A stretch of DNA of 64,000 nt from positions 186,001 to 250,000 of the forward strand of contig WHVD01000061.1 in assembly GCA_015178975.1 (NCBI GenBank). Direction: 5' to 3'. How positions within the stretch are numbered: position 1 is the stretch's first letter; each line of letters opens with the position of its first letter. Below are positions 21,383 to 63,812 of this stretch, piece after piece. A program made the position numbers and the translations under genes. Under the pieces are notes generated by a model that searched no databases, was not told the DNA's origin, and saw nothing but the letters and a program-made list of their open reading frames with translations. The stretch is from Hysterangium stoloniferum (lineage: Eukaryota; Basidiomycota; Agaricomycetes; Hysterangiales; Hysterangiaceae).

Positions 21383-21703
21383 TGTAAGGGCAACCCTAGT
21401 GGTGAATATCACACTGATAGAGGAAATCCAAAGATATATATAAGTGTCTAAATACAAGATAACTATCTACTCACCTGATAGAGGAAATCCAAAGAGAAAA
21501 GTCTAAGGAAACTCTACCAGGTGTGACACATCAGCTATACAGCACGCAGTGCATTTTCCCACACCTTAAGCACCCTCATACATCAGTTCAATGTCCCCTA
21601 TAAAGAATCAAGTGTCCTGTAATAGTGGGGTAATAAAAGGGAATAGACAATAGAGCATAATCTGGGGGATATAAAGTATGAATGATTTGTCCCCTTATGT
21701 ACA
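21383..21703 (-). repeat. Element C 3' LTR
   Basis: Plus-strand ends TGTAAGGGCAACCC...CCCCTTATGTACA. The minus-strand polypurine tract TGGGGGGGTGA lies next to it at 21714-21704. Confidence 0.88.
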
Positions 21704-21719
21704 TCACCCCCCCATCTAG

Positions 21720-22480
21720 ATGTGGTGCCTCGACACACGAGTGTTATCCAACCTCAACTTGGAGTCCCTGAAAATGGCAAAGTCTTTCTCCTGAATGGGT
21801 CTGGGTGCACCTGAGTGCAGTCAATGAAACTCTGCTGCTAGCTCCAGTGCATGGACATCCTTAGCATCTACCCACTCATTTTCCTCATAGCCATAACCTC
21901 TCCATTTGATAAGATATTGGAACTTCCTGTAGTGCATCCTGCTATCTAGGACTTCCTCCACCTCATATTCCTCTTGGTCACCTACAAGATCTGGGGGGGG
22001 GGGGTTGGTAGGGCTTAGGACAGCCTGGAAACAGGTCTACTGGAGCAAGCATGAGTTTAACAACAGGGAAGACTGGGTGTAAACACTTGAGCTTTTGAGG
22101 TAAACACAGTCGATATGCATGTGTGCCCACTTCCCTCTCTACCATGAAGGGGCCCAAACACTGGTGTGCCAGTTTGGCAGATGGTCGGGTAGAAGTTAGA
22201 TTACTTGCATCCAAAAACACCTTATCTCCTGGATGATAGACTGGAGTGGGTTCTCATTGTCGGTTATAGTATCTCACCATGTCATCCTTTGATTTCTGTA
22301 AGGCAGCCCTAGCTTCCTGCAGAGCATCTGCCATCCACTCCTTAAGTTCATTTACTGATTCCAGTCTGGATGACACCTGATGTGGTTCGAAACCCATGCA
22401 CAGATGATGACCAGTGTCAACCATGAATGGTGTGTGTTGTGTGGAAGAATGGATGTGATTATTGTATTGGAACTCTGCCA
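21720..22480 (-). pseudogene. Element C integrase C-terminus and chromodomain
   Basis: The minus strand reads integrase C-terminal sequence (FLDASNLTSTRPSAKLAHQ, LGPFMVEREVGTHAYRL, LHPVFPVVKL), then a proline tract and a chromodomain (EEYEVEEVLDSRMHYRKFQY, LIKWRGYGYEENEWVDA). It ends SRHHI-stop at 21720. One TGA replaces an expected Arg in AEFH*LHSGAPRP. Chromodomains target such elements to heterochromatin marks (family knowledge). Confidence 0.85.
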
Positions 22481-22513
22481 AGGGGAGTAGAGTAATTTAT
22501 CCCAATCATCCTG

Positions 22514-23914
22514 TCACTCATTTGTGAACAACTGTATATATTGCTCTAGTTCCATGTTGAGATGTTCTGTCTGTCCATCTGTCTGAGGATGATAGGCAGT
22601 AGAGGAGGCTATCTTAATGCCAAGCAAGTGGTAGATTTCCTTAGTGAATTCTGCCACAAACTGTGAGCCACGGTCAGAAACCACCTTCATTGGCAAGCCA
22701 TGTAGTTTCCAGACATGCTGTAGGAAAAGACATGCTGCACCTGCTGCTGAAAATGTGGTCATGGTAGGGATGAAGTGTGCCTGTTTTGAGAGTGAGTCAA
22801 CCACATTCATAATCACATTGAAACCATGGGCTTCTGGCAGTTCTGTAATGAAGTCCACACTGATCACTTCCCAGTGTTGACTGGGGATTGGCAATGGATG
22901 CAACTGGCCCATAGGTTTATGCCGGATGATCTTGGTCTGCAAACACACATCACAAGTCTTGGCATAGAGTCCTATGTGTCTTGACATCTGGGGCCACCAG
23001 TAATTCCTGGAAATGAGTTCTAAGGTCTTCCACTTGCCTGGGTGACCTGTTACCTTGGTATCATGATGTTGGGCCATAATACAGTGACGGAGATCCAAGT
23101 GGTCTGGAACATATACCTTACCACAAAACAGGAGTAGGCCCTCTAATTCTGACCACTCTGAGGACTGTGTAGACCTGCTTTTAGTCTTGTGCATCTCCTG
23201 AATGGCATTTGCCACTGCATCTTCTGGAGTTGACTCCTTCAAGCCTTTCCGGACATCCTTCAGGATATCCCATTCTTCACCATAAACCTCTACCCCTTCT
23301 AATGCTTGAATAGCAAACAATTCTGGTCGGAGGAGTACCCTATCCTTGTTGTCTTCTGCACCAGAACCATGGTCGGCATGTCTGGATAGAGCATCTGATT
23401 TTCCCATAGAGGCTCCTGGATGATGATGCATCTCAAAGTCAAATCGTGCCAAATAAAGTGACCATCTGGCTTGCCTCCAGTTCAACTTCTTGGATGTGCA
23501 AAAGTATTCCAGGTTCTTATGGTCTGTCCAGATCTCAAATTTATGCTCAGCACCTTCTACAAAGTGATGCCACTCTTCCAGTGCCTAGATGATAGCCAGC
23601 ATCTCCTTATCATGAATTTCATAATTGTATTCCACCTCATTGAGGCTTTTGGAGTAGAAAGCAATGAAATGCCACTTGCCATCTTCCTGTGACTCCTGAG
23701 ACAGTACTGCACCTGTGGCAAAGTCTGAACTGTCAGCCTCAATACGGTATGGAAGGTCATCTTTTGGAAAGACAAGAACTGGTGCTGAAGCCACCAGATG
23801 CTTGAGAGTGTGGAAGGCACCCACTTCCTCCTTGCCCCACTTCCAAAGCTGATCCTTTTTGGTGAGATCAAACAGGGGATGTGCATGGTGGGAAGTCCTT
23901 GACACTGGAGGCAT
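22514..23914 (-). pseudogene. Element C RNase H and integrase core
   Basis: RNase H: RIEADSSDFATGAVLSQES, EYNYEIHDKEMLAII then TGA at the Arg before ALEEW, and WTDHKNLEYF. Integrase: zinc-binding HHCC region (HHDTKVTGHPG...TCDVCLQTK) and DDE core residues in ISVDFITELP, VVSDRGSQFVAEF and TAYHPQTDGQTEHLN. A second TGA ends the frame at FTNE*QDDW, again at an expected Arg. Confidence 0.9.
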
Positions 23915-24277
23915 CCCAAGGTTTTTGGAGTTTGAAAACCTTCCAAAAATCCTAATATTTGGCCAAAATTTCTAAGAATTGTTTGAACTGATATACTGTT
24001 TAAAAATTTTAAGTTTTAGTAGAATTTTCCAAAGTGGAAAACTATATCTGAAAACTTTAAAAATTTGTATCAAGAAACTCTAACTAATGGTGTTTCCTCA
24101 GATTTCCTGATACAAATATTTAAAGTTTTCAGATATGATTTTCCACTTTAGAAAATCCTACTAAAACTAAAAATTTTCAAACAATTTATCAGTTCAAAGA
24201 ACTCTTAAAGAATTTGGCCAAATCATAGGATTTTCAGAAGGTTCTCCAACTCCAAAAACCTTGAGGTGCCTCCAGTG
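23903..24277. mobile_element. CACTG-ended foldback element (375 bp) inside element C pol
   Basis: Two long inverted arms (about 23903-24090 and 24100-24277) begin CACTGGAGGCA and are complementary over most of their length. TGA flanks both ends, consistent with a 3-bp target duplication. No coding sequence. CACTG ends plus a 3-bp duplication suggest a CACTA-type MITE (inference). It separates the RT tail (FANFYWRFI) from RNase H. A related right half lies at about 32100-32329. Confidence 0.8.
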
Positions 24278-24680
24278 TGATGAAACGCCAGTAAAAGTTG
24301 GCAAACCCCAGGAAGGACTGTACTTCCTTACAGCTACCCAGGGTTGGCCATTCTGCTACACCAGCCACTTTGATCAGATCCATCTCCACCTGACCCTCTG
24401 AAATAATGAGTCCCAAATACTCAATCTTGGTCTTCTCAAATTCACACTTCTCTGGCCTGAGATAGAGTTTATGCTGGCATAGCCATTGCATAACTAGATG
24501 TGACACATGGTAGTGCTCTTGCAGTGTTTTGGTGAATATCAAGATGTCATCCAGATAAATGACCACAACACCTTCCATTATAAGGTCATGGAAAATGTCA
24601 TTCATCATTGTCTGGAAGGTGGATGGGCTATTGGTGAGTCCAAAAAACATAACAAGGGGTTCAAACAGCATCTGGTACCA
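24278..24680 (-). pseudogene. Element C reverse transcriptase, 3' part only
   Basis: Reads [69 protein letters not shown]. The preceding linker (WDHAIELVPDA, about 24690) joins straight to FEPLVMFF with a frame change, so about 110 codons of RT, including the DYR-LN and first catalytic Asp blocks, are deleted. Confidence 0.85.
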
Positions 24681-25800
24681 GTTCAATGGCATGGTCCCAG
24701 GATTTCTGGTCAGGGAGTCTGTCAAAAGAGGCCTTGGAAAAGATGTCCACATATTCATGCAGGTACACAGGAATTTGATCTTGTACTGGTCCTTTACCTA
24801 AAGTCATTGGTTGGGAATTACAACGAAATGCCTCTGCAAGATGTTGAGAGGTGGTAGTACTAGGACAAATAAACTCTTCTTTGGGGGGGAGTGAGGCCAC
24901 CCAAATGCAGTCTCCATTCTCTCGAAGATCAGTATCTTCTTCTGTATCTTCTTCTATCTCTCCCTCCATCATTGAATCATCTTCTATAGGAGTGGTGGGC
25001 ATCAGTAATGGCCCAGTACGGCAGACTCGAAGCTTTGCAGCTGCCCAATGCTCTTCCTTTAACTCTTGTTGGCAAGTCCGACATTGGGATGGGCATCGAC
25101 TCATAGTGACCTTGCCTGTTGACCAATCCACCTCTGGGTTGTGCTGTTGCAGCCAGGTGAATCCAAGAAGCATATTGTGGCGACCCACACTGGTGATTGC
25201 AAAGACAGCACACTCATAATGATCTTTATAATGCAGGATGAGGTCAACTACTTCTGTGATAGCACCAGCCTCATTGTGAGTGCCATCGACATTAAGGACT
25301 GGGGGCAAGTGAGGGAATGAGTGGTGAGGTGCTTCTTTTTAACAAAATCCCTGTCAATGAACAGTCCTGTAGCACCACAATCTAAAAGAGCACTCAGGGC
25401 ATGGATCTCAGCAGTGTCTGTCACCTGAATCTGAATTGGCAAGGACAAGGAGTTGGTCGAGGGGGTTGAGCATATGATGTAGGTGGATGGCAACCTCCGC
25501 TCCCACTTCAGGAGATGGGGGTAGGGTTTCAGGAGGTTAGATGTGACTATTGGTTTCACAGTTTCAGCATAAGTAGAAGGAGTGTATTGAGGCTCTATCT
25601 TATCTATTGTTACACTGTGAAGTTGGTCATGAACAAGCAATGAGGGCACATCCTTCACTCGTTGCTGGGGGGAAAACCCTGTTCCACCGACTGTCCCAAT
25701 GGGAGTGGCTCCTTGTCCACATTGGAAACCTGGCCTGCATCCTCCAATGCCAATATACTGTATCTTGAGTGAATGCCGACAGGTCATCTGGGTCTTCTGC
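24680..25800 (-). pseudogene. Element C protease and protease-RT linker
   Basis: Protease active-site motif ALLDCGATGLFIDRDFVKKK (about 25380), frame-shifted into a following segment with HYKDHYECAVFAITSVG and MLLGFTWLQQHNPEVDW (the protease flap/C-terminal ILG-like motif). Then an acidic linker and the conserved PVYLHEYVDIFSKASFDRLP before RT. Confidence 0.8.
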
Positions 25801-25820
25801 TAGGAAATGGAGGATTTCCC

Positions 25821-26874
25821 TTATCTCCTGACAATCATGTGCCCAATGACCCACCTGTCCACATTTACGACAGGTATTGAGAGGGGTATGTTGCTGTGTC
25901 CGACAAGCCCGGTCCACTTCCATAGGCACAGTTCCGATTGCGGACCCCCGTTGCATCGACAGAGCGTGTAAGGGAAATCCGGGGGGCACCCTGGCGGCAG
26001 TGTGTAATTGATGTGAGGGGGTGTGGGGATCGAGTGGGAATGTGATCCAGTTGTCGACAAAACAACTGGTGTTCTCGGGGGTAAGCTCTGCCGTTGGAGC
26101 GACTGTTGGAAAGTGTCACTGGCTGCCTGGGCTTGTGCTGCGATGTGTGCTGTCTCAAACCAGCTGTCGAGGTCGCTATTGCCTGGGCGGCCAACTGTCA
26201 TGGTCACAACTTGTCGTTCGATGCTGTGGTTTAGACTGGCTCTGAATGCCATGACAGCAGGGGTGCTGGTGTACTCTGCCTTGTGGGCCATCTCTTGAAA
26301 GTCGTCGATGTAGAGGTTGATATGCCAGGTACCTTGAAAATATGCCATAGAGCTGAGTCGACTAGCGGCAGCTTCTTGTTAGAATTGCAGGTAGAATTCC
26401 ACTTCAAATTGGGTCTGAAAGTTGCCCCAGTCTGTGAACATAGTGCCATTAGCATAGTGTTGCAGGATCACCTTACTTGCCCAAGTTGCGGCTCAGCCAG
26501 TTTTCATGAAAGTCAAGACCCAAAGGATGCGTGTGTTGTCATCCAGGAAATCTTCAGGACACAGCATCATGTAGGTGTAGCAAGAGTGAAGAAGGTTGTG
26601 GCCATGGTCTCTATTTCTGTTGAAGTCGCTCGGTTTCAAACCTTTTGGATGATGCATCATTCGGACAGATGTTGCGAGAGATGGGGTGGAATGTGGTGAC
26701 TGGATTCGAAGGATGAGTAGAGGGTGTGGCTGATGAAGAGGGGAGTGTAGAATTCACGAGATTGCTAATGGTGAGTTGGAGTTGAGTAATGAGGTCTGTG
26801 AGAGCCTTGACACTGTCCTGAGTGTTCTGCTCCATGCCTTGCAAGTACTGCTCGAGCTCTGGAGGCAGAGACAT
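25821..26874 (-). pseudogene. Element C gag with CCHC knuckle
   Basis: Start MSLPPELEQYLQGMEQNTQD at 26874, then frameshifted Gag segments (FQGTWHINLYIDDFQEMAH, AVMAFRASLNHSIERQVV). The zinc knuckle CRKCGQVGHWAHDC is at about 25870. Several frameshifts. Confidence 0.8.
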
Positions 26875-26978
26875 CCCAAAATATGAGGTGGGGTGATATG
26901 CAGAATGTAAGGAGTGGTTGCAAGTTTACTCCATGTTTTATCTGTAGTAACAACTGCAGCCAGCCCTAGGAGATTGTG

Positions 26979-26988
26979 AGACTTTTCT
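26979..26988 (-). promoter_or_regulatory. Element C primer-binding site, complementary to its own LTR
   Basis: Two bases after the 5' LTR the minus strand reads AGAAAAGTCT, the exact complement of AGACTTTTCT within the LTR (minus strand 27112-27103), about 36 nt downstream of a TATA-like TGTATAG. This is the geometry of Tf1-type self-priming. Confidence 0.6.
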
Positions 26989-26990
26989 AC

Positions 26991-27307
26991 TGTAAGGGCA
27001 ACCCTAGTGGTGAATATCACACTGATAGAGGAAATCCAAAGATATATATAAGTGTCTAAATACAAGATAACTATCTACTCACCTGATAGAGGAAATCCAA
27101 AGAGAAAAGTCTAAGGAAACTCTACCAGGTCTGACATGTCAGCTATACAGCACACAGTGCATTTTCCCACGCCTTAAGTGCCCCCATACATCAGTTCAAT
27201 GTACCTTATAAGGAATCAAGTGTCCTGTAATAGTAGGGTAATAAAAGGGAATAGACAATAGAGCATAATCTGGGGGATATAAAGTATGAATGATTTGTCC
27301 CCTTACA
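26991..27307 (-). repeat. Element C 5' LTR (317 bp)
   Basis: Differs from the 3' LTR at few positions and by a 4-bp indel near the end. Confidence 0.9.
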
Positions 27308-39965: not shown

Positions 39966-41565
39966 CAGTAGGCAACAAAACCCTTACAATGTTTTGCACT
40001 TTTTGAAAGACATGGCTATTCCTCCAGAAATAAATTCTGTAAATTGCTGAAAATATTATGTAATATACTTCAACATCATACCTTCCAGAAATGCACAGCC
40101 ACAAGGCACCATGTCTTTATTTGGTAAGTTCACATCACACACAAACCAATAGCTCATTGTAAGGGTTTTGTTGCATACTATTTTGAGACTATTATTACAA
40201 GAAATTAGTATTTAGTATGGCCCCCCTTTGCTCTAATCACTGCTGCAAGTCTTCTAGGCATACTCTCAATAAGCTTCTGACACTCCTCCTTTGGAATCTC
40301 TTCCCACACCTTCTGCACCCTCTCCCACAGTTCATGAACACTATTTGCAGGCTGTTCATACTCCCCCAGCTTCTTTTTGACATGATTCCACAGATGTTCA
40401 ATAGGATTCATGTCAGGAGATTGTGCAGGCCACTTGAGGACTATAACATCATGGTCAGTGAACCATTTCTGGGCCTTTTTGCTGGTGTGCTTGAGGTCAT
40501 TGTCTTGTTGAAACACAATGTCAGCCACTGTTTTGTTGTAATATTTGAGGGTTTGCTGGAGTTCATCATCCAGGATCTCCACATAAAGCTCAGCATCCAT
40601 CCTCCCATCAATTTTGGTTGCAAACCCAACCCCATCCCAGCCCATGCATCCCCACATCATCAGGTTTCCTCCTCCAAACTTGACTGTTCCCTCTACTAAC
40701 CTATCATTTAACCCCTCACCCACATTTTTCCACACATATTTCCTTCCATCTGATCCTAGCCTATTAATCTTAGTCTCATCAGGCCATATGATCCTCTTCC
40801 AGTCCTCCAGGGTCCATTCCAAATGCCTTTCTGCAAACTCCAATTGAGATTTCCGATGATGAGGTTTGAGAAGTGGCCTTTTTCTCTTTACCACAGCCCT
40901 CATGCCTGTGGTTTTGAGGTGGCAATGCACTGTTTGTGAAGTAATAGGAGTGTTGATGATGTCTATAAGTTTCTTGGTTGCCTGTGTGGCATTATCAACC
41001 TTCCCCATGCAAATTATTCTTCTAGCATAGGCAATATTGGCTGTGGTAAGCTTTGTAGGATGGCCATCAGAGCATTTGGGAGGTCAGGGTGATGCTCAGA
41101 GTGAATACAACTGATGGTGGCACTGCTGAGATGAGTTTGGTAACATATTTGAGCTCCAGAAATGCCAGAGTCAAGTAGAGTAAGAACATGTTGGATTTGG
41201 CTGGAGGAGAGCTTTTTCATTGTGAGTAGGGTGATTGTGGGATTCCAACTGGTTGCTTTCATCTTATATATATTGAGACAGAGTGGTCACATGACTTTGT
41301 TGAACTTTATAAACAAAGTCATGTGACTAGGACCCATTTGAACTTTAAAAATGTGTGCAACAAAACCCTTACAATGAGCTATTGGTTTGTGTATAATGTG
41401 GACTTACCAAACAAGGATGTGGTGCCTTGTGGCTGTGCATTTCTGGAAGGTATGATGTTGAAGTATATTACATAATATTTTCGGCATTTTACAGAATTTA
41501 TTTCTGGAGGAATAGCCATGTCTTTCAAAAAGTACAAAACATTATAAGGGTTTTGTTGCCTACTG
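39966..41565 (-). mobile_element. Tc1/mariner element 1, inserted in a Plavaka intron
   Basis: 1600 bp with TA on both sides (39964-39965, 41566-41567) and inverted ends CAGTAGGCAACAAAACCCTT. The terminal repeats are about 215 bp each (39966-40180; 41350-41565). The 20-bp end motif GCAACAAAACCCTTACAATG is repeated, inverted, at the inner edge of each arm (about 40155 and 41349). The flanks match a GTGTGT...CTTCAG intron of the Plavaka gene. Confidence 0.92.
40205..41262 (-). pseudogene. Tc1/mariner transposase 1 (DD34E), frameshifted
   Basis: The N-terminal DNA-binding part (MKKLSSSQIQHVLTLLDSG, IHSEHHPDLPN) reads in one frame from 41262, and the catalytic part in another from 41008 to 40205. 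One small indel near 41085 separates them. Catalytic residues: Asp in WPDETKINRLG, Asp in VFQQDNDLKHT, Glu in SPDMNPIEHLW, the DD34E arrangement. The second copy (51485-52501) is intact across the same point, which confirms the frameshift. Confidence 0.9.
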
Positions 41566-51245: not shown

Positions 51246-52830
51246 CAGTGAATTACAAAACGTATCCAATGTTTAGTAGTTTCAGCTTATATATGCTATA
51301 TCCCAGTGGATAAAATAGTAGAAATCACCAAAGTATTTGTGAACATGACCTATCATGTATATATTTATACGGTAGAATTATATTACATAATATCCATATA
51401 TGGCAACACTATGAATATTTCAATGGAGAGGGTTCATTGGATACGTTTTGTAACTGACACATTTAGGCAGGAAATTACTAGTATTTAGTACTTAGTGTAG
51501 CCACCCTTTGCCTTTAATACATCTGAAACCCTCCTAGGCATACGTTCAATCAAATCCTGACACACCTTTGCATCAATCCTGTACCATTCATCCACCACCC
51601 TCTCCCACAACTCTTCCATCCCCTGGGTTGCATTCTCATACCCTGCCAACCTCCTCTTCAGGTGATTCCATAGGTGTTCAATGGGATTCAAGTCAGGAGA
51701 CTGTGCTGGCCATGAGAGAACCCTGAAACCATTTTCTTGGAACCAATTCTGGGCCCTCTTGCAGGTATGCTTGGGGTCATTGTCCTGCTGGAAGATGATA
51801 CCATTGGCAGATTTACCATAGTCCTTAAGACTGGCTTGCAGGTCATCCTCCAGAATCTGGATGTAGAGATCCCCATCCATCCTTCCATCAATCTTGCATG
51901 CATACCCAACCCCCTCCCACAGCATGCACCCCCAAACCATTAAAGATCCACCACCAAACTTCAGGGTTCCCTCAACCAGTCTGTCACTCAAGCCCTCCCC
52001 TGCCTTTTTCCACACCCACTTCCTGCCATCTGACCCAAGCCTATTAATTTTGGTCTCATCAGACCACACCACCTTCTTCCAATCCTCCACAGTCCAATCC
52101 TGATATGCCAAAGCAAAATCCATCCTCTCCTTCCTATGCCTCTTAGAAAGAAGAGGCCTTTTCTTCTTTACCACAGGCTTCATCCCAGCTGCCTTGAGTC
52201 CACAATGCACTGTTTGAGCATTGAGTGACTGGTTGGTGATAGTGCAAAGTGCCTTTGTTGCATCTACAGCTGTATCAACCTTTCCAGAGCTGATAAGGTG
52301 TTGTGCAAAATGGATGTTGGCTGTGGAGAGTTTGGAAGGACGACCACCAGAGGACTTAGAAAGGTGGGAACAGTGTTTAGAATGAAGTCTAGAGATAGTA
52401 GCATAACTATAGCCAGTAGAAAGTGAAATATGTCTGGCAGAATGGCCAGCATCAAGTAGAGAAAGAATCTCATACTGGGCAGCAGTGGAAAGGGGATGCA
52501 TAGTTAGAATTGAGGGAATCTTAGCTGAGAAAGCCCTTCTACTTATACTGTTGTATAGAATGATCACATGACATGTTGAAAAACATAAACAAATGCAAAC
52601 AATCAACATAGGCACATGGTTTTCATGCCAGAACCTGTCAGTTACAAAATGTATTCAATGAACCCTCTCCATTAAAATATTCATAGTGTTTCCATATATG
52701 GATATTACATAATATGTTTCTACCATATAAGTATATACATGATTGGTCATGTTCACAAATAGTTTGGTGATTTCTACTATTTTATCTACTGGGATATAGC
52801 ATATATAAGCTGAAACTACAAATAACAATG
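51246..52830 (-). mobile_element. Tc1/mariner element 2, right end lost
   Basis: Left end TA-CAGTGAATTACAAAACG. Arms of about 200 bp (51246-51465; 52640-52830) are inverted copies (GTAGTTTCAGCTTATATATG, TGGTGATTTCTACTATTTTA). The TTACAAAACGTATCCAATG motif recurs inverted at the inner edge of the arm (51437). The outermost ~24 bp of the right arm are absent where the LTR of element B begins (52832). Same overall plan as Tc1 element 1. Confidence 0.88.
51485..52501 (-). CDS. Tc1/mariner transposase 2 (DD34E), intact
   Basis: 338 aa from MHPLSTAAQYEILSLLDAGH; the frame is open 38 codons further upstream, but this Met aligns with the start of the helix-turn-helix. N-terminal HTH region (HISLSTGYSYATISRLHSKH), GRPSKLS hinge, Asp in WSDETKINRLGSDGRKWVWK, Asp in IIFQQDNDPKHTCKRAQNWF, Glu in SPDLNPIEHLWNHLKRRL, ending AKGGYTKY. 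No stops or frameshifts, so the enzyme may be functional although its own right terminal repeat is damaged. It could act on related elements elsewhere. Confidence 0.92.
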   Translation of the reverse strand: MHPLSTAAQYEILSLLDAGHSARHISLSTGYSYATISRLHSKHCSHLSKSSGGRPSKLSTANIHFAQHLISSGKVDTAVDATKALCTITNQSLNAQTVHCGLKAAGMKPVVKKKRPLLSKRHRKERMDFALAYQDWTVEDWKKVVWSDETKINRLGSDGRKWVWKKAGEGLSDRLVEGTLKFGGGSLMVWGCMLWEGVGYACKIDGRMDGDLYIQILEDDLQASLKDYGKSANGIIFQQDNDPKHTCKRAQNWFQENGFRVLSWPAQSPDLNPIEHLWNHLKRRLAGYENATQGMEELWERVVDEWYRIDAKVCQDLIERMPRRVSDVLKAKGGYTKY

Positions 52831-52831
52831 T

Positions 52832-53631
52832 TGTTACGACCGGACAATCCTGCCGGACTCTGGGCACTAACTTGTATGCCCCCACGCGCTACAAGCACCA
52901 ATCGTCTGTTTATAGGATTTCCCGCCCGGACTCCATTACGTCAAGGCTTGTTACGTTCGACCTCATTAAGACACATATCAGTCACCGGACTTCCCCTGGA
53001 CCCCATCTCTGTCTATGTCCGTCTTCATCCCACGCATCAGTCACCGGACCCGCTCAGAATCCTGTCACCGCTCTAATCGAGCCCCGTTCCCGTTTTAGTC
53101 AAATGACCTGTCACGATTTAGGACTCCGCTCCCGCTCCATTTCCCGTTATGGGTTATGCTTTGTCACAATTTGGACTCCGCTCCGTTCCGTCCCGTTCCT
53201 AACACCAATTTGGTGTTTACGATTCCCGTTTTATGTTTTGCTCGTTTCATCTCATTATTACTGGATTCGGTATGTCATGCATTCCACGGTCTATATAAAC
53301 TGGCAGATGTTGTACATACAATCCAGTCAGAAAATTAGCTTAGATTCCCCCCAGTAATCTAAAGCCTACTCTTATCAGACCGCTCACACTAGTCGGAGCC
53401 CACGGGCTCCGGCGCATCTATCTCTCTCGACTATCTCGATTCACAACTCACGACTCACCACCTACAACTCACGACCCACGAACCCCCGCCCGGACTCCCC
53501 GGGATTCCTGTCTGCCTGTCTGAAATTGGACAACACGATCTAGCGAGGGCGCAGCCTATAAGCTGAAGCCAAGTCCTACTGGATATTCCACAGGTTTCTC
53601 CGGAAACCCGCCCTGTGTGTGTATCCTAACA
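52832..53631 (+). repeat. Element B 5' LTR (800 bp)
   Basis: TGTTACGACC...TATCCTAACA, with 5-bp inverted TGTTA/TAACA ends. The first 250 bp match 61728-61977 with a handful of differences (mostly C/T). It contains the R-U5 block GAGGGCGCAGCCTATAAGCT shared with the solo LTR at 13682. Confidence 0.92.
53292..53335 (+). promoter_or_regulatory. Element B TATA box and inferred transcript start
   Basis: TATATAA at 53292-53298. About 32 nt downstream, AGTCAGAAAAT (53325-53335) is the exact complement of the primer-binding site, so transcription is inferred to start at or close to 53325. Confidence 0.6.
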
Positions 53632-53633
53632 GT

Positions 53634-53644
53634 ATTTTCTGACT
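53634..53644 (+). promoter_or_regulatory. Element B self-complementary primer-binding site
   Basis: ATTTTCTGACT, two bases after the LTR, is perfectly complementary over 11 nt to AGTCAGAAAAT at 53325-53335. In Tf1 the first 11 nt of the RNA prime reverse transcription at this position (established). Confidence 0.65.
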
Positions 53645-53668
53645 TACACTCGCAGATTGTTTTTTATT

Positions 53669-54950
53669 ATGCCACTAAGAAGAAGTACACGTGCACAGTC
53701 ATCATTACCTGGACCGTCAACTCTTCATTCCCCGTTAACTCTGTATACCAGTCAGACGCTTGCGAACCAGTCGGAACCCATGGAAGAAGCCAGTATCGAA
53801 GAAGTCCCAGAAAACCAGGATGAACTCGAGAACGAGGAAGAATCTGTGGCCCCCGACAAGGGCAAAGGTGTCGAAAACCCTCTCGAAAATCCTCTGCCTC
53901 TCGAACGACCGCACACGAGGGATCCTACTTCTGAGTTTTTAGCAGGTACTATAGATAAATTTATGATGCACCTGCTAGAAGAACGAAAAAGAAAGGAACA
54001 AGAACCTCCACGGTCAAAAGTCAATGCTCCGGAACCCTTCACGGGTTCCAACCCAAACAAACTCTCCACTTTCCTCATGCAATGTCGCTTCAATTTCCGC
54101 GATCATGCCGCTGCATTCTCCACGGACTCCCGAAAAGTCAATTACGCACTTTCATATTTGTCGGGATCCGCGTTGAAATGGTTCGAACTGGCTTTTAGCG
54201 GGATTACCGAGGAAGAGCCGCTCTGGCTTGAAAATTGGGAAGCTTTTGTTGAGGAGCTTGAAACCAACTTTGGCCCGTATGACCCGACAGGAGAAGCCGA
54301 GAATAGTCTCACAAATCTTCGTATGAAGGACACGCAGCGCATCACGGACTATATCGTCCAATTCAATAATCTTGCAGCTCGTTGTCAGTGGGGCGATCCC
54401 GCTCTCCACTACCAATTCTATGCCGGTCTGCCGTCCCGCCTTAAAGACGAAGTCTCGAAAGGAGAAGATGGCAAGCCAAAAACCCTGTCCCGTATGCGCC
54501 TCAAGGCTCAAAACGCGGACGCACGTTATTGGGAACGTCGCGCGGAAGTTGCCCGCGAGACCTCCGCGGATAAAGTTCCACAGCCAATAAAAACAACAAC
54601 AACAACTCGTCAACCAGCAACTCCACTCAATCTGACAAGAAGAACGACAAAAAGTCTTCAAACAACAACAAGGATAATAAGGACAATAAGGACAACAACA
54701 AGGGTCAACAGTCCAGCAAGCAAGCCGGCAAACCCGACCTCTCAGGCAAACTCGGACCCAATGGCAAATTAACCCCACAAGAAAGACAACGTCATATGGA
54801 CAACAATCTCTGTCTATTGTGCGGGAAACCCGGTCATCGAGTCCCGGAATGTCCACTGGCAAAAGCAAACTCTTCAAAGGGTCGATCAGCCAAGGCCTCC
54901 ACGGAAACCCCATCGAAGGACAAACCAGCTACCGACTCGAAAAAAGAGTA
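53669..54950 (+). pseudogene. Element B gag (single frameshift)
   Basis: Start MPLRRSTRAQSSLPGP at 53669. Acidic region, then the conserved Gag core (EPFTGSNPNKLSTFLMQCRF, ALSYLSGSALKWFELAFSG, LRMKDTQRITDYIVQFNNLA, HYQFYAGLPSRLKDEV). A one-base indel near 54590-54605 in an AAC-repeat shifts to the frame that carries LTPQERQRHM and the knuckle CLLCGKPGHRVPEC (about 54810). Confidence 0.85.
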
Positions 54951-57046
54951 AGCAACCCCGCGGGCTCCACGTGGGTTGGGGGTTGCGTTGCCTCTCCGCG
55001 CATTCAAGAGTTTACTCGCCTCAACGCATCCACTCTTTCACATTCTGATTCATTTTTCGTTAAACTTATGTCTAATATGATCCTGAAATTCGTTTTTTCA
55101 GCTCTCATAGATTCCGGCTCGACTCACTGTTTTTTAGATACAAAATTCATGCAAAAAAATTCTTTGTCAACTTATTCGATAAATCCCGTCGCACTCCGCC
55201 TCTTCGATGGCACAAGTAATTCGGTTGTTACCCAAGCTTGTGATTTACCCATCAATTTCCCTTGTGGAACATCTCAATTGGTCACTTTCTATGTGACCCA
55301 GTTAGACTCAAGTTGCTCGGTAGTCCTAGGACATAACTGGCTTACCCGCTACAATCTGTTGATTGACTGGATAGCTAACAGTATAACATTCCGGACTCCC
55401 GCGGCGACCGAGGAAACTGCGCCTGTCTCGGCCTCCACGGCACCCATGGCCTTCCCGGCACCTGCAGTCTCGAGGATGCCTGTGATCCCTACGGCACCTA
55501 CAGCTTCCCCGGAACCCACGGCACCTCCGTCCATTTCTCTGATTAATGCTGCAGCTTTTATTAGGGCTTCAAAAATGGATGGGTCCCAGGCGTTCACTAT
55601 CAACTTGAAAATTGATGAAGCAACTGGACGTTTCTCAACCCCAGTATCCGAATCTGAGCAAGCTGCTGACCTAGAAGGCGTCCCGGAGAAATACCATGAC
55701 TTCACGGATGTTTTTAGCAAGTGAAAAGCTGACCGGCTTCCGCCTCACAGAGAATACGACTTAAAAATCGATCTTGAAGATGGCGCCCAGCCACCCCTAG
55801 GACATATTTACCCGCTCTCGTCCATGGAACTATCCGCAATCCGTGATTTCCTGGATGAACATTTGTCCATAGGCTTTATTCGACCCTCAAAGTCTCCTTT
55901 TGGAGCACCTGTTCTGTTTGTCAGAAAAAAGGATGGATCCCTTCGACTATGTGTTGATTTTAGAGGACTCAATGCTGTCACCAAAAAGGATAAATATCCA
56001 CTCCCGCTTATATCTGACCTGCTCGATGCTCCGCGGAATGCCCGAATTTACACCAAAATAGATCTCAAGCATGCCTATCATTTGGTCCGGATCGCCGTGG
56101 GCGACGAATGGAAAACCACTTTTAGAACCCGTTATGGGGCCTTTGAGTGGTTGGTGATCCCTTTTGGTCTCACCAATGCTCCTTCTGTTTTTCAGCGTTT
56201 TATCAACGACATTTTCTCCGACATGCTCGATGTATGTGTCATTGTTTACTTGGACGACATTCTTATCTACTCCGAGAATCCCGCGGAACACGACAAACAA
56301 GTCCGTGAAGTTCTCCGGAGACTCAGACAACATGGTTTATTCGCAAATGGTAAAAAATGTACTTTTGACACGGACTCCGTGGAATACCTAGGTTTCATGA
56401 TGGGACCCGATGGACTCCGCATGGACGAAACTAAAGTACAAGTCATCAAAGATTGGCCCGAACCCCGAAAAGTTAAAGATATACAATCCTTTCTCGGCTT
56501 TGCCAATTTTTACAGACGTTTTATCCGCGGATATTCCGACATCACAGTACCCCTTACCCATCTCACACGTAAGGGTACTCCGTGGAATTTTAACGATAAG
56601 TGTCAAAAAGCTTTCAATCTTTTAAAAAATTCTTTTTCTACAGCTCCTATTCTGTCGCATTGGAAACCGGACTTCCCACTCATTGTTGAAACGGACGCCT
56701 CTGATTATGCGCTTGGAGCCATTTTGTCTATCCAGGACTCCGACGGAGAGGTCCACCCCGTGGCTTTTCTGTCCTGGACTTTTACCGGAGCAGAGCTCAA
56801 CTACGATGTTCATGATAAAGAACTTCTGGCAATCTTTTCAGCTTTCAAAGCATGGCGACACTATTTGGAAGGTTCAGGAGCTCCTATTGACGTTGTAACA
56901 GATCACAAAAACCTGGAATACTTTTCTACCACAAAACTTTTGACCTGTCGGCAGGCCCGCTGGTCTGAATATCTATCTGCCTTCAACATGATTATCCATT
57001 TTCGACCTGGCCGTCTCGGCGGCAAACCCGACGCTTTAACTAGATG
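54951..57046 (+). pseudogene. Element B protease, RT and RNase H
   Basis: Protease ALIDSGSTHCFLDTKFMQKN; linker; a TGA at 55722 (FSK*KADRLP). RT: FGAPVLFVRKKDGSLRLCVD, TKIDLKHAYHLVRI, VIVYLDDILIYS, IQSFLGFANFYRRFI. RNase H: IVETDASDYALGAILS, YDVHDKELLAIFSAFKAWRH, VVTDHKNLEYF. The frame ends in TGA at 57045 within ALTR*WDVYP, an expected Arg. All catalytic residues are present. Confidence 0.93.
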
Positions 57047-58680
57047 ATGGGACGTCTATCCTAAAGAGGGGAGCAACGACTATGCAACGGTAAATCCGCA
57101 CAACCTGAAACCTATTTTCACGAATCAACAACTTACCGCATCGGTCCGCGCAACTTTCCTCGTCAATCCCATTGTCCGTGGAATAATCATTATGGATATC
57201 GAGAAGTTACATCAAGATATTCTATCGGCAATTCCCCTAGACCCAATTACTAAAGCTCATCTAGACAATCTCGCGGACCCCGATCAACCTCGGTGGTCTC
57301 TTGATCAACATGGTTTCATTAGACTTGACAATCGCATCTACATATGTACCGGACTCCGACGGCCTCCGCCTCAGGATCCTTCAATACAAACATGATCATC
57401 CACTCTCAGGACATTTCGGGTACAACAAAACTCTATCATTAATAAGAAGAGAATATACTTGGCCTGGACTCCGTGGATTCATTAAGCACTATTGTAAATC
57501 TTGCACTACTTGTCCCCGCTCGAAATCTCAGCGACACAAGCCATACGGCCTTTTGAAACAACTCCCGGTACTGGAACACCAGTGGAATTCTATCTCTATG
57601 GATTTCATTGAACACCTACCGGATTCTGAAGGCTTTTCTGCTATTCTAGTTATTGTTGACAGATTCTCAAAACAAGGTATATTCATCCCTACTTATGATA
57701 CAATTACGTCCGTGCAGCTAGCGGAACTTTTCATTATCCACGTATTTTCCAAGCACGGAGTTCCGTCCCACGTGACTTCCGATAGAGGATCAGAGTTCGT
57801 ATCTCACTTCTTTAGATCCCTCGGAAAATCCTTGGACATGACATTACATTTCACGTCCGGACATCACCCGGAAGGCGACGGACAAACCGAACGCGTCAAC
57901 CAGACCTTGGAACAATACCTCCACGTATATTGCAACTACCAACAGGACAATTGGAAATCCTTGTTACCACTTGCAGAGTTTGCTTACAACAATGCACCTT
58001 CGGCCACTACTGGTGTTTCCCCGTTCTTTGCAAATAAAGGATATAATCCAAACATTACAGTACATCCAGAACGAAATCTCGCCTCCGTTCGCGCTCAAGA
58101 GTTCACCACGGACCTCCACGAGCTCCACAAGGAACTCCGGACTGCAATATTGTCCGCCCAAGAGCAATACCAACATTCAGTGGACAAACACCGGATCCCG
58201 CCACCCAACTTCAAGATTGGCGACCGTGTTTATGTCAAAGCTCAATTCTTCCGGACTACCCGTCCATCAAAGAAGCTTGCTGAAAAATATTTAGGTCCCT
58301 TTGAAATTATCGCACAAGTAGGTTCAGTTTCTTGGACTCTACGGCTTCCGGATAGCATGCGTGCGGTACACCCGGTATTTCATGTTTCTATGCTAGAACC
58401 TTGTACTGCTAACACTATCCCGGATCGCGTGCAATCTCCGCCTCCTCCTGTCATCATTGATGGAGAACCCGAGTTTGAAATCTCGCAGATTTTAGATTCA
58501 AAAATTGATAAGCGTCGACACACTTGTAAACTGCTTTACTTGGTCAAGTGGGCGGGTTACGAGGGTACCGATGAAGAAACCTCATGGATTTTGGCCACGG
58601 AACTCGGTAATGCCACGGAAATCGTTACTGACTTTCATACAGCTTACCCACTCAAACCTGGACCATTATCTTCTCTCTGA
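57047..58680 (+). pseudogene. Element B integrase with chromodomain
   Basis: A frameshift near 57345 divides the N-terminal spacer from the main frame. HHCC zinc-binding HDHPLSGHFG...CKSCTTCPRSK. DDE core: SISMDFIEHLPDSEGFSAIL, HVTSDRGSEFVSHFFRSLG, SGHHPEGDGQTERVNQTLE. C-terminal SH3-like part (FKIGDRVYVKAQFF, LGPFEIIAQVGSVSWTLRLP). Chromodomain EFEISQILDSKIDKRRHTCK, LLYLVKWAGYEGTDEETSW. Ends at TGA 58680. Confidence 0.93.
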
Positions 58681-59857
58681 CTGCACTCCGCGGACCCCGT
58701 GTTATATTTGGACTCATTTTCACTATTCCCTGTCGCCCTATGTCTCTCTTTGCTTTTACAGGTTCTGACATGTCAAGTCAAGTCTTTTAAGCGGACTCCC
58801 CGCGGACTTTGGCTTTGACTTTTATTCTTATGTTTTTCACGCTTTACTTTCATGTTCAATTATTATCAAGTTTTATTTTATTTTCAATCTACATTGATGG
58901 GGCTATGTTTTTTCCCCGCTGCCTCAGCTACCTCCTCAGGGAGCTCCGTGACCTCCGCAGCAACCCCGTCCTCATCCGACCCGGCATCCTCGGAACTCCC
59001 GATCTGCGGCTCTTTATAGACATAGCCGCCATACTCCGCCAGGAACTTCCAAAACTCCTCGTGGAGTCCGGACAGCTCCTTTGCCACCACAATTTGGACC
59101 TTGTTGCTCTTCCGGAGCAACTCATTTTGGGCCTCGATGCCCTCGGCGATCCGTCCAAGGACTTCATCCAACCCGGACAACCCATCCGTCCTGCTTATGT
59201 CTCGCGCCCCGGATCCCGTGGCCTGCTCGTGCACAAGTGAGCACCTCGCCTTGAGGTGCGCGCATTGGTAACACCCCGGACCCCGGCCAGACTTTCAATT
59301 GCACTCTGTGTTCCGGTCGTTACAACTGGAACACCGCGGCTCGTTCCACATCGGTAGTCGGACTGGTGCCGCCTTCCTTGCCTTCTGTTGATATGGTCAG
59401 TTTTCACCGGTTATCCCATGGACATGAGGCCTACCTTTTGGGGGCTCTCCGGCTCCCCCTCGGACTCGGACTCCACCTCTGTCGCTTTGCGCTGAAAATT
59501 ACAAGTCAGTAAAGAGGTTCGACAAGTTGGAACCTGGGACTTACCTTTCCCGCAACAATGGCGGCCCTCTCCGCGGCCACCCGGGCTTTCTCTGCAGCCA
59601 CCCGGGCGTTCTCCGCGGCCACTCACGCAGCCTCCTCTGCCTCACATTCCCTCTCCTTTGCGGCCTCTTCCTCCGCAGCCAACGCTTCCTGGTACTCTCT
59701 GTCCAGGGCCTCCTCGGCCTCCCTCGCCTCTCTCTCTGCTGCTTCACGCAGTTGGCGTTGCTCTTCTCGCCGCGCCAACAATTGGGCCACACTCCACGGT
59801 GCCCGATACGGAGTGCCCGTGGAGGGCCCTGATGTAGGCATTGGCTTGCGTGGTGTT

Positions 59858-61498
59858 TGTGATGTATTAGCCTTATTTTAATACTATTTTCCGAAAAAGG
59901 AGTCCAATGCTCTATCAAAATGTGCAAATACTCAATTCACTGCAAGGTAAAATAATTTAAGTATTTGATATTAATCAGTGGCAGCCTAAATAGACTTAGA
60001 ACCCCTGAAGTCAAGAGTTTACTTGAATATATGCACCCTACTTCGCAAAGAAGGTTTTGAGAGCTGCTTGTGCAAGCTTGTTCTTTTTCTGTAAAAACAC
60101 TACTAAAATATGAATAACAATTCACTGATTCCGAAACTAGATTCGACTTCGATTCTAGCTAGTTTATATATATTTTATACTATTTATCAAACAGTAAAAA
60201 TATTTATAAACAGGTCAAAAGATTAGATATAGAATAAAACACTATTTGGCTAATATATGCTTTATTTACACTAACCTACAGGGTCTACTGTGATACTAAC
60301 TTATCAGGATCTTAATGTAGTCTTAAGGATTCTGCAAGAATATTCTCAGTATTTGTTTATGCCAAAAACCGGGTAGAAATTAGAATATATGTATTTCTAA
60401 TCTCAATATAACCTAAAATATTTATTACTTTAACTGATAACCAACAACTCAACTAGAGGTGGATTAGTAATAAAGGATAGCCAGCTACTCAACTAAGAGG
60501 TGGCAAAAAGGGAACAAGTTGTTTGTCAGAAGCTCAACTAGAGGTGACAAGGGGGTAGGATTATTACCAGAAGCTCAACTAGAGGTGGCAAAGGGATCCT
60601 GAGATAGCTTAGGTCAGCAGCTCAACTAGAGGTGACTAAGTGTTTATATATATTTATCCAACAGCCCAACTAGGGGTGGAATATAACTGCTGATGCAGTG
60701 GCACACTGATGTGGTGTAGTAAATGGGTTAAAATAAGTTATATTTCAGTGGTGGAGCAGAGCTCCTTATATACAGTAAAATCTGAGACATGGGAGAATGT
60801 TCTAGCTACTTGTTTTACCTATTTTTAGCTATTTTACCTGGAATCTGCTGGAATATTCCAGGAGTTTCTGCTACTTTCCATTGTAGCATATATGCTGATG
60901 TAATGTTCTCGCGCGTCGCGAAGTTGCTGATTTCGTGCGCGCGCTGATTACATAATTTTCCCGCGCGTGTCGCGTTTGTGACAAGTCGTCGCATTTTGTG
61001 ACGACGGTCACTTGTTGTGACGACAGTCACCGTTGTGACGACAGTCACCGTTGTGACGACAGTCACTTGTTGTGACGACAGTCACCGTTGTGACGAAGGT
61101 CACCATTGTGACGAATGTCACCGTTGTGACGAATGTCACCGTTGTGACGAATGTCACCGTTGTGACGAATGTCACCGTTGTGACGAATGTCACCGTTGTG
61201 ACGAATGTCACCGTTGTGACGAATGTCACCGTTGTGACGAATATTCCCGCGCGTTGTGCAATAAGCGCCAGAAGGCCGACTTCGAAGATTTTTAGTTAAA
61301 AAAGAATAAACAGTAGAATTTCGATAGTTCTCCCAAATTAAATCATAAAAATATGAAATAAATTGTAAAAATCAGGTTAAATTCAGGAGAATATTGTACA
61401 ATAATTTCGTCGCAATATAAGTACATTTGAACTTGTTTTTATCAATTTGTTTAGGGGGAGATTGGTTAAAAATCGGAAAAACCTAAAAATACATAACA
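59858..61498 (+). mobile_element. S-type solo LTR, copy 2 (1641 bp, TSD GTGTT)
   Basis: TGTGATGTATT...AATACATAACA ends, with GTGTT at 59853-59857 and 61499-61503. It contains degenerate repeats around CTCAACTAGAGGTGGCAA (60440-60680), TATA-like CTTATATACAG (60763) and an 18-bp minisatellite (60990-61245). It is inserted in the first coding exon of element B's antisense gene. No coding sequence of its own. Confidence 0.9.
60990..61245. repeat. 18-bp minisatellite in S-type LTR copy 2
   Basis: About 14 units of GTCACCGTTGTGACGAAT and variants (GACAGT, GAAGGT). Every unit contains inverted GTCAC/GTGAC, so each can fold. Open frames across it on both strands are repeat artefacts. Confidence 0.93.
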
Positions 61499-61710
61499 GT
61501 GTTGGTTTTGGCCCCATAGTGACAATGATGGGGGTAATGAAGAAGAAGAAATTTCTATTTTTTCAAATTTTTATATAGGCTCGTCGCGTTTGAACCTTAC
61601 CTTCCAGATCACATGACTCTTTGACACATACATGTAACCGACATGACTTTTGACACATGCGCGTAGCCGACAAGAACCTTATCAAAGTCTAGAGCCTCTT
61701 TGGGACTTCG

Positions 61711-61727
61711 GCATAAAGGGAGGATAC
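61711..61727 (+). promoter_or_regulatory. Element B polypurine tract
   Basis: AAAGGGAGGATAC immediately before TGTTACGACC of the 3' LTR. Confidence 0.75.
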
Positions 61728-61977
61728 TGTTACGACCAGACAATCCCGCCGGACTCCGGGCACTAACTCGTACGCCCCCACGTGCTACAAGCACCAATCG
61801 TCTGTTTATAGGATTTCCCGCCCGGACTCTGTTACGTCAAGACTCGTTACGTTCGACCTCATTAAGACACATATCAGTCACCGGACTTCCCCCGGACCCC
61901 ATCTCTGTCTATGTCCGTCTTCGTCCCACGCATCAGTCACCGGACCCGCTCAGAATCCCGTCACCGCTCTAATCGAG
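61728..61977 (+). repeat. Element B 3' LTR, first 250 bp only
   Basis: Matches the 5' LTR up to GCTCTAATCGAG and then switches abruptly to S-type LTR sequence. The remaining ~550 bp are absent from the window. Confidence 0.9.
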
Positions 61978-63422
61978 CAAATACTCAATTCACTGCAAGG
62001 TAAAATAATTTAAGTATTTGATATTAATCAGTGGCAGCCTAAATAGACTTAGAACCCCTGAAGTCAAGAGTTTACTTGAATATATGCACCCTACTTCGCA
62101 AAGAAGGTTTTTGAGAGCTGCTTATGTAAGCTTGTTCTTTTTCTGTGAAAACAACCACTAAAATATGAATAACAATTTACTGATTCCAAAACTAGATTCA
62201 ACTTCGATTCTAGCTAGTTTATATATATTTTACACTATTTATCAAACAGTAAAAATATTAATAAACAGGTCAAAAGATCAACTATAGAATAAAACAATAT
62301 TTGGCAATATATGCTTTATTTAAATTAATCTATTGGATCTACTGTGATACTAACTTATCAGGATCTTAATGTAGTCTTTATGATTCTGCAAGAATATTCT
62401 CAGTATTTAATTATAAGCCAAACCAGGAGAAATTAGAATTATATCCTAATTTCAAACAATAAAACAAACAATTTATTTATTACTTGGTTGATAGCCAACA
62501 ACTCTAACCGAGGTGGCAACAGATTCCAACAACTTAAATAGAAGTCAGAAAAAGTAATAAAGCCAGCTACTCAATTAAGAGGTGGCAAGGGGGAACAAAT
62601 AAGTCAACAACTCAGATTGAGGTGACAAGGTGAACTACTTGGGCCAACAACTCTAACCGAGGTGGCAAAGGTTTCCAACAACTCAAATAGAGGTGGAATT
62701 AAATGTCCAACAGCCCTGATAGGGGTGGAATAGCCTGCTTGCTGCAGTAACACACAGATGTGGGTGGATAAAAAGTTATATTTTCACGGCTGGAGCAGAG
62801 CTCCTTATATACAATAAAATGTGAGACATTTTTGAAACATATTACATCATTACTATCCTAATTTAGCTATTCCTGGGGAAGCTTCTGGAATGCTCCAGGA
62901 ATTTCCGGTTCTTTCTACAGTAGCATACATGATGATGTAATCTATTCCTGCACCTTTCGTGTATGTCATCCGCGCGCCTTTGTGATCATCGCGCCGTGTG
63001 ACTGTCACATTATGTGACTGTCGCGCCTTGTGACCGTCGCGCCTTGTGACCGTCGCGCCTTGTGACCGTCGCGCCTTGTGACCGTCGCGCCTTGTGACCA
63101 TCGCGCCTTGTGACCATCGCGCCTTGTGACCATCGCGCCTTGTGACCATCGCGCCTTTTTGTGACGACTGTCACATGATTTTCTCGCGTTGTGTAATTAG
63201 CGCCTGGTGGCCGGTTTGATAGTATTTAGTTAAAAAAGAATAAATTCATAACTTCTTCAATATTTAAGATAAAAATGTAAAATAAATTGTAGAAATTCAA
63301 CGAAATTTAAAAGATATTTATACAAATTTTATCATCGCAATATAAGTACATTTCACAAGCCATTTTGGCTATTTCGGCTTTTGGGGGACTTAAAAGGTAG
63401 AAAACTAATAAAATACATAACA
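61978..63422 (+). repeat. S-type LTR, copy 3 (lacks the first ~65-70 bp)
   Basis: Starts at the internal CAAATACTCAATTCACTGC and aligns with copy 2 to the ATACATAACA end. Degenerate AACTC-AGGTGGCAA repeats at 62480-62720, TATA-like CTTATATACAA, and a different minisatellite at the equivalent position. Confidence 0.88.
63000..63155. repeat. 15-16 bp minisatellite in S-type LTR copy 3
   Basis: About nine to ten units of TGTGACCGTCGCGCCT / TGTGACCATCGCGCCT, occupying the same place as the 18-bp array of copy 2 but with a different unit. Confidence 0.93.
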
Positions 63423-63812
63423 ACCTCATTTGAGATGCCATCAGATTTGGAAGGATATACATGAATGGTAACAATTGACCTATAACTTGGCAGAACAAGC
63501 TACCTCTCAAGTCAATTCACTCATAATCTCCTCAGGAATACCAGAGTGGTACCAACAAACCAGAAACTCTTCACATCCCGCCTATTAGTTCGGGAAGGTG
63601 GTGGGTGGTTTGGTAATGTTACTGTACAATTGCTTAGTAATTTAATAAAGCATTTCTTGCTCAAGTCTACCGTGTGCCAGTGCATTCTTGCCCCTTCAGT
63701 GTGTCAATTCCCCAATGCCCTCAACAAATATCCCACTCTTCCAGCTCCCTCACAATGAGGTGGAGGATTTCACAGTCCAGTTGGGCTTCTCAGATTCAGA
63801 TGACAGTGTACT
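63423..63812. other. No feature seen
   Basis: 390 bp between the S-type LTR and an LTR-like start; short frames only, no recognisable gene. Confidence 0.4.

Follow-up and report, generated by a model that had tools for sequence, protein, structure and literature searches.

Organization of the locus

We analyzed a window of 64,000 nt from the genome of Hysterangium stoloniferum, which belongs to the Hysterangiales and is ectomycorrhizal (PMC7550596). Near the right end of this window lies a Ty3/gypsy element that carries, on the opposite strand between the chromodomain integrase and the 3' LTR, a frame with two introns (58884-61517). This frame had been proposed in a preliminary description of the DNA, and all of its coordinates check exactly. 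The features of the element are as follows, in window coordinates.

52832-53082, plus strand: 5' LTR, matched part of 251 nt, 238/251 identical to the 3' LTR
53630-58680, plus strand: gag-pol remnants over four ORFs (gag, protease, RT, RNase H, integrase, chromodomain)
58884-59384, minus strand: exon 3 with the stop codon (coding 59384-58887), holding the six-cysteine cluster, a helical segment and an acidic tail
58886-58884, minus strand: stop codon of the antisense gene
59297-59295, minus strand: in-frame TGA in exon 3
59385-59434, minus strand: intron 2, 50 nt, GT-AG, with a CTGAC motif
59435-59491, minus strand: exon 2, 19 codons, acidic/serine stretch
59492-59544, minus strand: intron 1, 53 nt, GT-AG, with a CTGAC motif
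59545-59852, minus strand: main part of exon 1, Arg/Glu/Ala-rich, resuming after the insertion
59625-59623, minus strand: in-frame TGA in exon 1
59858-61498, no strand assigned: solo LTR-like insertion in exon 1, 1,641 nt, TG...CA ends on the plus strand
61499-61517, minus strand: first 19 coding bases of exon 1 (ATG at 61517-61515)
61518-61727, minus strand: promoter-like region with a TATATAAA box, two direct repeats and a pyrimidine-rich leader
61728-61978, plus strand: 3' LTR, matched part

The window copy of the gene is broken by the 1,641-nt insertion and by the two TGA codons. The insertion is flanked by a GTGTT duplication, located at 59853-59857 next to the main part of exon 1 and at 61499-61503. 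It is absent from intact copies of the gene, and its unit recurs at dozens of places in the genome among the matches listed. Naturally intact copies encode 294 residues, the product length that had been proposed for the window copy.

In the carrier, Pfam matches above the cut-off were found along gag-pol (PF03732, PF08284, PF00078, PF17917, PF17921, PF00665 and PF00385), and the domain order between the LTRs is that expected of a Ty3/gypsy chromodomain LTR retrotransposon. The differences between the two LTRs indicate that the window copy of the element is not young.

Copies of the gene and their linkage to pol

Exon 3 is present at at least 150 places in the genome, with 79-100% identity among the matches listed, and the matched stretch is free of stops in 125 of the 150 listed copies, as counted by eye. 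A divergent relative, about 65% identical, accounts for dozens of further copies among at least 150 matches listed, a set that overlaps the first one. We fetched 60 loci, which represent 47 distinct places. At least 20 of these 47 hold an uninterrupted frame of 294 codons and one more holds a frame of 297 codons, while the remaining places have stops or frameshifts or were missed by the text patterns.

In terms of arrangement, pol stands tail-to-tail with the antisense gene at all fetched loci (60/60, or 47/47 distinct places). An LTR lies upstream of the gene in 57 of the 60 loci, the exceptions being the window copy, which was fetched twice, and one other locus (L035). Starting from the other side, we picked ten integrases because their gene was absent from the exon-3 list, and all ten had the gene or a fragment of it alongside (a fragment only in three). 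The lack of a homologous antisense frame in related gypsy elements would have refuted the preliminary description; such a frame is present family-wide.

For the alignment-based measurements, 68 sequences including repeats of the same place were aligned, giving 58 rows with the reference and 48 distinct copies. Neither the 58 rows nor the 48-copy set used for dN/dS and diversity was picked for an intact frame or for the cysteine motif. The codon counts follow the columns of a single reference copy, so that insertions are hidden, and in these columns the whole coding sequence is stop-free in 32 of the 48 distinct copies. Of the 26 stops in this set, 25 are TGA, and 18 of them stand where most copies have CGA, which suggests that CpG decay may have broken the stopped copies. 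When the terminal stop is read copy by copy, 53 of 55 places end in TGA behind the final residues, and L069 and L075 have a different tail; the aligned stop column of the 58 rows reads TGA in 15, a gapped TG in 36, TGG in 5 and GAT in 2.

Intron signals

The splice dinucleotides are nearly invariant over the 58 rows: GT at donor 1, AG at acceptor 1 and AG at acceptor 2 each occur in 57, and GT at donor 2 in 56, with TT in one row and gaps in the other deviating rows. The introns themselves are variable, with a nucleotide diversity of 0.128 and 0.158 against 0.054-0.089 in the exons. Text patterns extracted intron 1 from 38 copies (48-57 nt) and intron 2 from 40 copies (48-51 nt), and a CTRAY motif lies within the last 30 nt of the intron in every one of them (38/38 and 40/40).

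Gap lengths against one reference copy differ between the two kinds of sequence, being multiples of three in 11 of 18 cases in exons and in 0 of 33 in introns. The exon gaps were of 21 nt (six), 18 nt (one), 3 nt (two) and 1 nt (four) in exon 1, of 1 nt (two) in exon 2, and of 3 nt (two) and 7 nt (one) in exon 3, whereas all 33 intron gaps were of 1 or 2 nt. Splice sites are kept while the intron sequence drifts, as in a two-intron gene, and the antisense gene is predicted to be spliced at two GT-AG introns.

Selection on the coding frame

Codon-level purifying selection, which the preliminary description had named as a check across copies, is present in the gene. Over the 48 distinct copies, the median pairwise dN/dS is 0.195 in exon 3 (1,114 pairs) and 0.307 in exon 1 (1,026 pairs), compared with 0.186 in the integrase (692 pairs). 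Where a copy has both regions, as 39 copies do, the gene gives a pN/pS of 0.268 and the integrase one of 0.193. Between subfamilies, dN/dS is 0.12-0.36 at dS 0.28-0.77, based on five copies that, like alignment A1, were picked for an intact frame with the cysteine motif. The other forward frames gave 0.94-1.38. On the opposite strand of exon 3, two frames gave 1.2 and 1.8, and the third gave 0.269; this value is low since the third positions of that frame coincide with those of the gene frame, and each of the 48 copies has stops in it. Judged from these codon comparisons, the protein is under purifying selection near the level of the integrase.

Promoter-like region

Upstream of the ATG, 56 of 57 distinct places have a TATATAWA box, among them a relative whose protein is about 67% identical. 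This count includes L072, whose box reads TATATAGA and which is among the copies with less than 200 nt that were left out of the 35 unique upstream sequences. In the copy measured, the box is at -60 from the ATG and the direct repeat is at -140 and -111. The repeat consists of TGTGTCAAA followed by AGTCATGT, and the plus strand of the window reads TTTGACACA at 61620 and 61649. Twenty-nine of the 35 unique upstream sequences contain TGTGTCAAA twice.

In the promoter-like region, identity to seven divergent copies is 89-96% over 121 nt, compared with 67-85% for intron 1 (six copies where extracted, the text pattern having missed that of L073). Over 150 nt before the ATG, diversity is 0.046. This is lower than in the gene, exons and introns alike, and lower than in the sequence behind its stop (0.066); for the integrase the value is 0.023, from fewer and closer copies. 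Based on this conservation and the TATA box, the gene appears to bring its own antisense promoter, located between the 3' LTR and the gene and outside the matched LTR. The same region also contains the purine-rich tract of the element that adjoins the LTR, and its conservation might instead serve the sense strand, through this tract and 3' end formation.

The protein and its six-cysteine cluster

From its sequence, the product has an Arg/Glu/Ala-rich segment at residues 31-109, followed by an acidic serine stretch between the Lys/Arg runs KRK and KKARK; we take these Lys/Arg residues to be a basic NLS-like motif. Six cysteines follow at residues 146, 149, 156, 166, 169 and 176 in a region with a net charge of +5, then a hydrophobic, probably helical segment at about 196-248 and a tail with a net charge of -12. 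The spacing CX2CX6CX9CX2CX6C at residues 146-176 is seen in intact copies.

The six cysteines, whose lack of conservation would also have refuted the preliminary description, are each kept in 57-58 of 58 rows. Their columns are conserved at 0.98-1.0, but 56% of the exon-3 columns are equally conserved (in this count L078-L080 lack an aligned cysteine region, L069 and L076 each have one cysteine changed, and L077 and L081 are frame-shifted in the region). The DNA diversity of the cluster is 0.089 versus 0.084 for exon 3.

The fungal Zn2Cys6 cluster has the spacing CX2CX6CX5-12CX2CX6-8C, with which the spacing found here agrees. The profile gave a different result. Seven of eight family members match Pfam Zn_clus (PF00172), all below its 21-bit cut-off (E 0.43-4.2). 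The two copies displayed score 8 and 10.2 bits, and the match covers 16 of 39 model positions in the window copy. In this partial match, model positions 16-31, the second half, fall on the first three cysteines of the protein, as if the halves were swapped. Accordingly, the part of the earlier Zn2Cys6 claim that concerns the spacing stands, whereas the profile does not support membership; we speak of a Zn2Cys6-like spacing rather than of a Zn2Cys6 protein. Like fungal Zn2Cys6 proteins, the product also has basic residues nearby and an acidic tail. None of the 42 Zn_clus matches in the genome is at a listed place of the antisense gene, as compared by eye. These matches cluster in repeated groups on contigs C56 (near 27.5, 39.6 and 45 kb, for example), C115, C113 and C209, which points to gene duplication or to a mobile element that carries canonical Zn2Cys6 domains.

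The description of the cluster as flanked by coiled coils could not be established, since shuffled sequences reached the heptad score in 75 of 1000 cases for exon 1 and in 159 of 1000 for the C-terminal helix. A PDB sequence search returned only weak matches to talin-1 helices (E 0.14 and 0.17). Sub-threshold Pfam names were taken as chance matches: TAF4 (E 1.3), DUF5539 (0.24), ANTH, WSN, a chemotaxis sensor, and AvrD (best E 0.089, in 4 of 8 members).

Comparison with known antisense accessory genes

The preliminary description regarded the gene as an undescribed system, which is too strong, because antisense accessory genes at the same place in LTR retrotransposons are already in print for plants and for Boty of Botrytis. 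In plants, aORFs between pol and the 3' LTR are known in Grande and Retand; an upstream promoter and nuclear localisation are reported for gene23, and DNA binding is predicted for TRP28 (PMC7264820, PMC11963269). On the one hand, these aORFs share with our gene the antisense place between pol and the 3' LTR. On the other hand, their carriers are plant elements, of which Retand belongs to a non-chromovirus lineage, whereas the Hysterangium carrier is a chromodomain element. In addition, the word "intron" does not appear in the main texts of PMC7264820 and PMC11963269, which appear to mention no six-cysteine cluster. The TRP28 domain (PF04195) gave no Pfam match at E up to 10, a search in which the HMMER filters drop most weak matches. 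The plant aORFs and the Hysterangium gene have the same organization, which does not show that they are the same family.

The brtn gene of Boty is reportedly due to Zhao et al. 2011. It is carried in antisense by Boty elements of Botrytis cinerea and Sclerotinia (PMC7264820, PMC8365987). Compared by description, brtn is like our gene in position and orientation but belongs to ascomycete carriers, and protein searches with the Hysterangium product named no Botrytis protein. A paper on LTR retrotransposons in fungi contains neither "antisense" nor "zinc" in its main text (PMC3248453). In terms of its introns, conserved promoter-like region, cysteine cluster and basidiomycete chromodomain carrier, the Hysterangium gene seems distinct from the known aORFs, with brtn judged by description only.

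A further comparison is provided by HBZ of HTLV-1, which has a spliced form, a basic region and a bZIP domain and is not known to carry a cysteine cluster. Transcription of HBZ begins in the 3' LTR, whereas the TATA box of the Hysterangium gene lies outside the matched LTR. Like the present gene, HBZ belongs to a retroelement and is encoded in antisense (PMC3185765).

Possible role of the antisense gene

The proposal of a retrotransposon-encoded antisense gene is strongly supported by its family-wide presence, its two introns as read from sequence, the purifying selection and the conserved promoter-like region. We consider it probable that this is a genuine antisense accessory gene with its own promoter, spliced twice, and that its 294-residue product is most likely a nuclear nucleic-acid-binding regulator of element transcription. 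During expression, transcription would begin past the TATA box that separates the 3' LTR from the gene, and the transcript would be spliced twice to yield a 294-residue nuclear protein acting on the element. Such a protein would be a nuclear nucleic-acid-binding regulator like HBZ, or as proposed for the plant aORFs. This reading draws directly on the frame, the intron signals, the selection, the promoter-like conservation and the linkage to pol; transcription, splicing, zinc binding, nuclear location and the target are what we infer from them, so that a role in regulating the element should be read as conditional. For the suggested heterochromatin targeting, we found no evidence.

Introns in reverse-complement orientation in a genomic RNA are not removed by splicing and so persist through reverse transcription. 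In the sense genomic RNA of this element, the introns would be carried as their reverse complement and would stay unspliced. Since the gene runs antisense to the genomic RNA, retrotransposition can leave its introns in place, and the family looks to be a clear example of orientation allowing a gene with introns to survive reverse transcription. In RNA-seq data, the introns would also mark an antisense mRNA beyond doubt. The family has well over a hundred copies, with at least 20 of 47 places intact, and would serve as a testbed for whether retrotransposons encode their own regulators.

A more specific form of this regulator model is a circuit like that of HBZ, in which the spliced antisense gene is driven by the TATA promoter and its half-swapped Zn2Cys6-like product binds the promoter repeats, the LTR or both, setting the balance between copying and silence. 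We offer this only tentatively. If it were true, self-encoded antisense regulators would, together with brtn, be recurrent in fungal gypsy elements.

The protein may be real and yet not regulate transcription. It could handle the RNA or cDNA of the element, in export, packaging, nuclear import or integration, with the cysteine cluster as a nucleic-acid-binding knuckle. The positive charge of the six-cysteine region and the sub-threshold Zn_clus match agree with such a role, but a separate antisense promoter-like region with a TATA box would be a better fit for a regulator expressed on its own than for a protein produced together with Gag-Pol. We regard RNA or cDNA handling as rather unlikely.

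Capture of a host gene in antisense, introns included, and its retention for a cellular activity and not for regulating the element seem improbable. Its best support is composition: GC3 is 0.71 in the exons of the gene and 0.44-0.46 in gag, RT and integrase, and the short introns with a branch motif are as in a nuclear gene. However, GC3 is also only 0.41-0.46 in three other ORFs of the window, so the gene is compositionally unlike these as well as its carrier. Moreover, no paralogue away from pol was seen among the 47 places read, which come from lists of close copies. Protein searches, limited by shared-word seeding, by a candidate length window and presumably by annotation on masked genomes, returned only two partial copies (P0001 and P0002), both from H. 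stoloniferum, and no relative outside the species. Among viral contigs, 20 pattern matches were obtained, none of them related to the gene.

It is very improbable that the antisense transcript is the functional unit, through dsRNA or interference with sense transcription, and the protein incidental. The conserved promoter-like region would suit such a role, which has been discussed for plant elements (PMC7264820), and antisense RNAs of Ty1 and Tf2 are linked to control (PMC7175516), but codon selection near the integrase level disfavours it.

Long GC-rich frames do occur: 30 of 48 copies lack stops in frame +1 of exon 1, and 26 of 48 lack them in one opposite-strand frame of exon 3. These two frames, however, evolve at dN/dS 1.03 and 1.21, low values are confined to the gene frame and the opposite-strand frame sharing its third positions, and a chance open frame is refuted by the pairwise and between-subfamily dN/dS. 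At the level of sequence, purifying selection, conserved GT-AG and CTRAY signals and family-wide presence confirm that the antisense frame of the regulator model is more than chance.

Other observations on the family and the window

Many copies of the gene are located within a few kb of contig ends (L025, L060, L066, L068 and others). We rejected an association with telomeres, since the two ends read, the start of C103 (L066) and the near-start of C1 (L025/L044), fall inside pol and look like assembly breaks. The element family probably limits the assembly. The CpG observed/expected ratio is about 1.16 in intact exon 3, 0.84 in the window copy, about 1.02-1.05 in gag and pol, and 0.56 for the whole window.

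The window contains a second Ty3/gypsy element on the minus strand (21381-27305) with 317-nt LTRs that are 96% identical (21381-21697 and 26989-27305); no relative of the antisense gene was found in it. Just left of the 5' LTR of the carrier is a Tc1/mariner-type transposase ORF (DDE_3, 389 aa, 51273-52822) surrounded by 202-nt inverted repeats that are 91% complementary, and a further transposase ORF is present at 40205-41083. Rfam gave no match at gathering scores. On the other side, a diverged LTR-like unit of the same type as the insertion in exon 1 abuts the end of the matched 3' LTR (61979-63425) and seems to be without its first ~70 nt. The insertion contains an array of an 18-nt near-palindromic unit (TTGTGACGAATGTCACCG and variants) at 61014-61248, and a 16-nt version of the unit occurs in the relative at 62964-63173. 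From their sequence, these arrays look like a binding-site array within an LTR.
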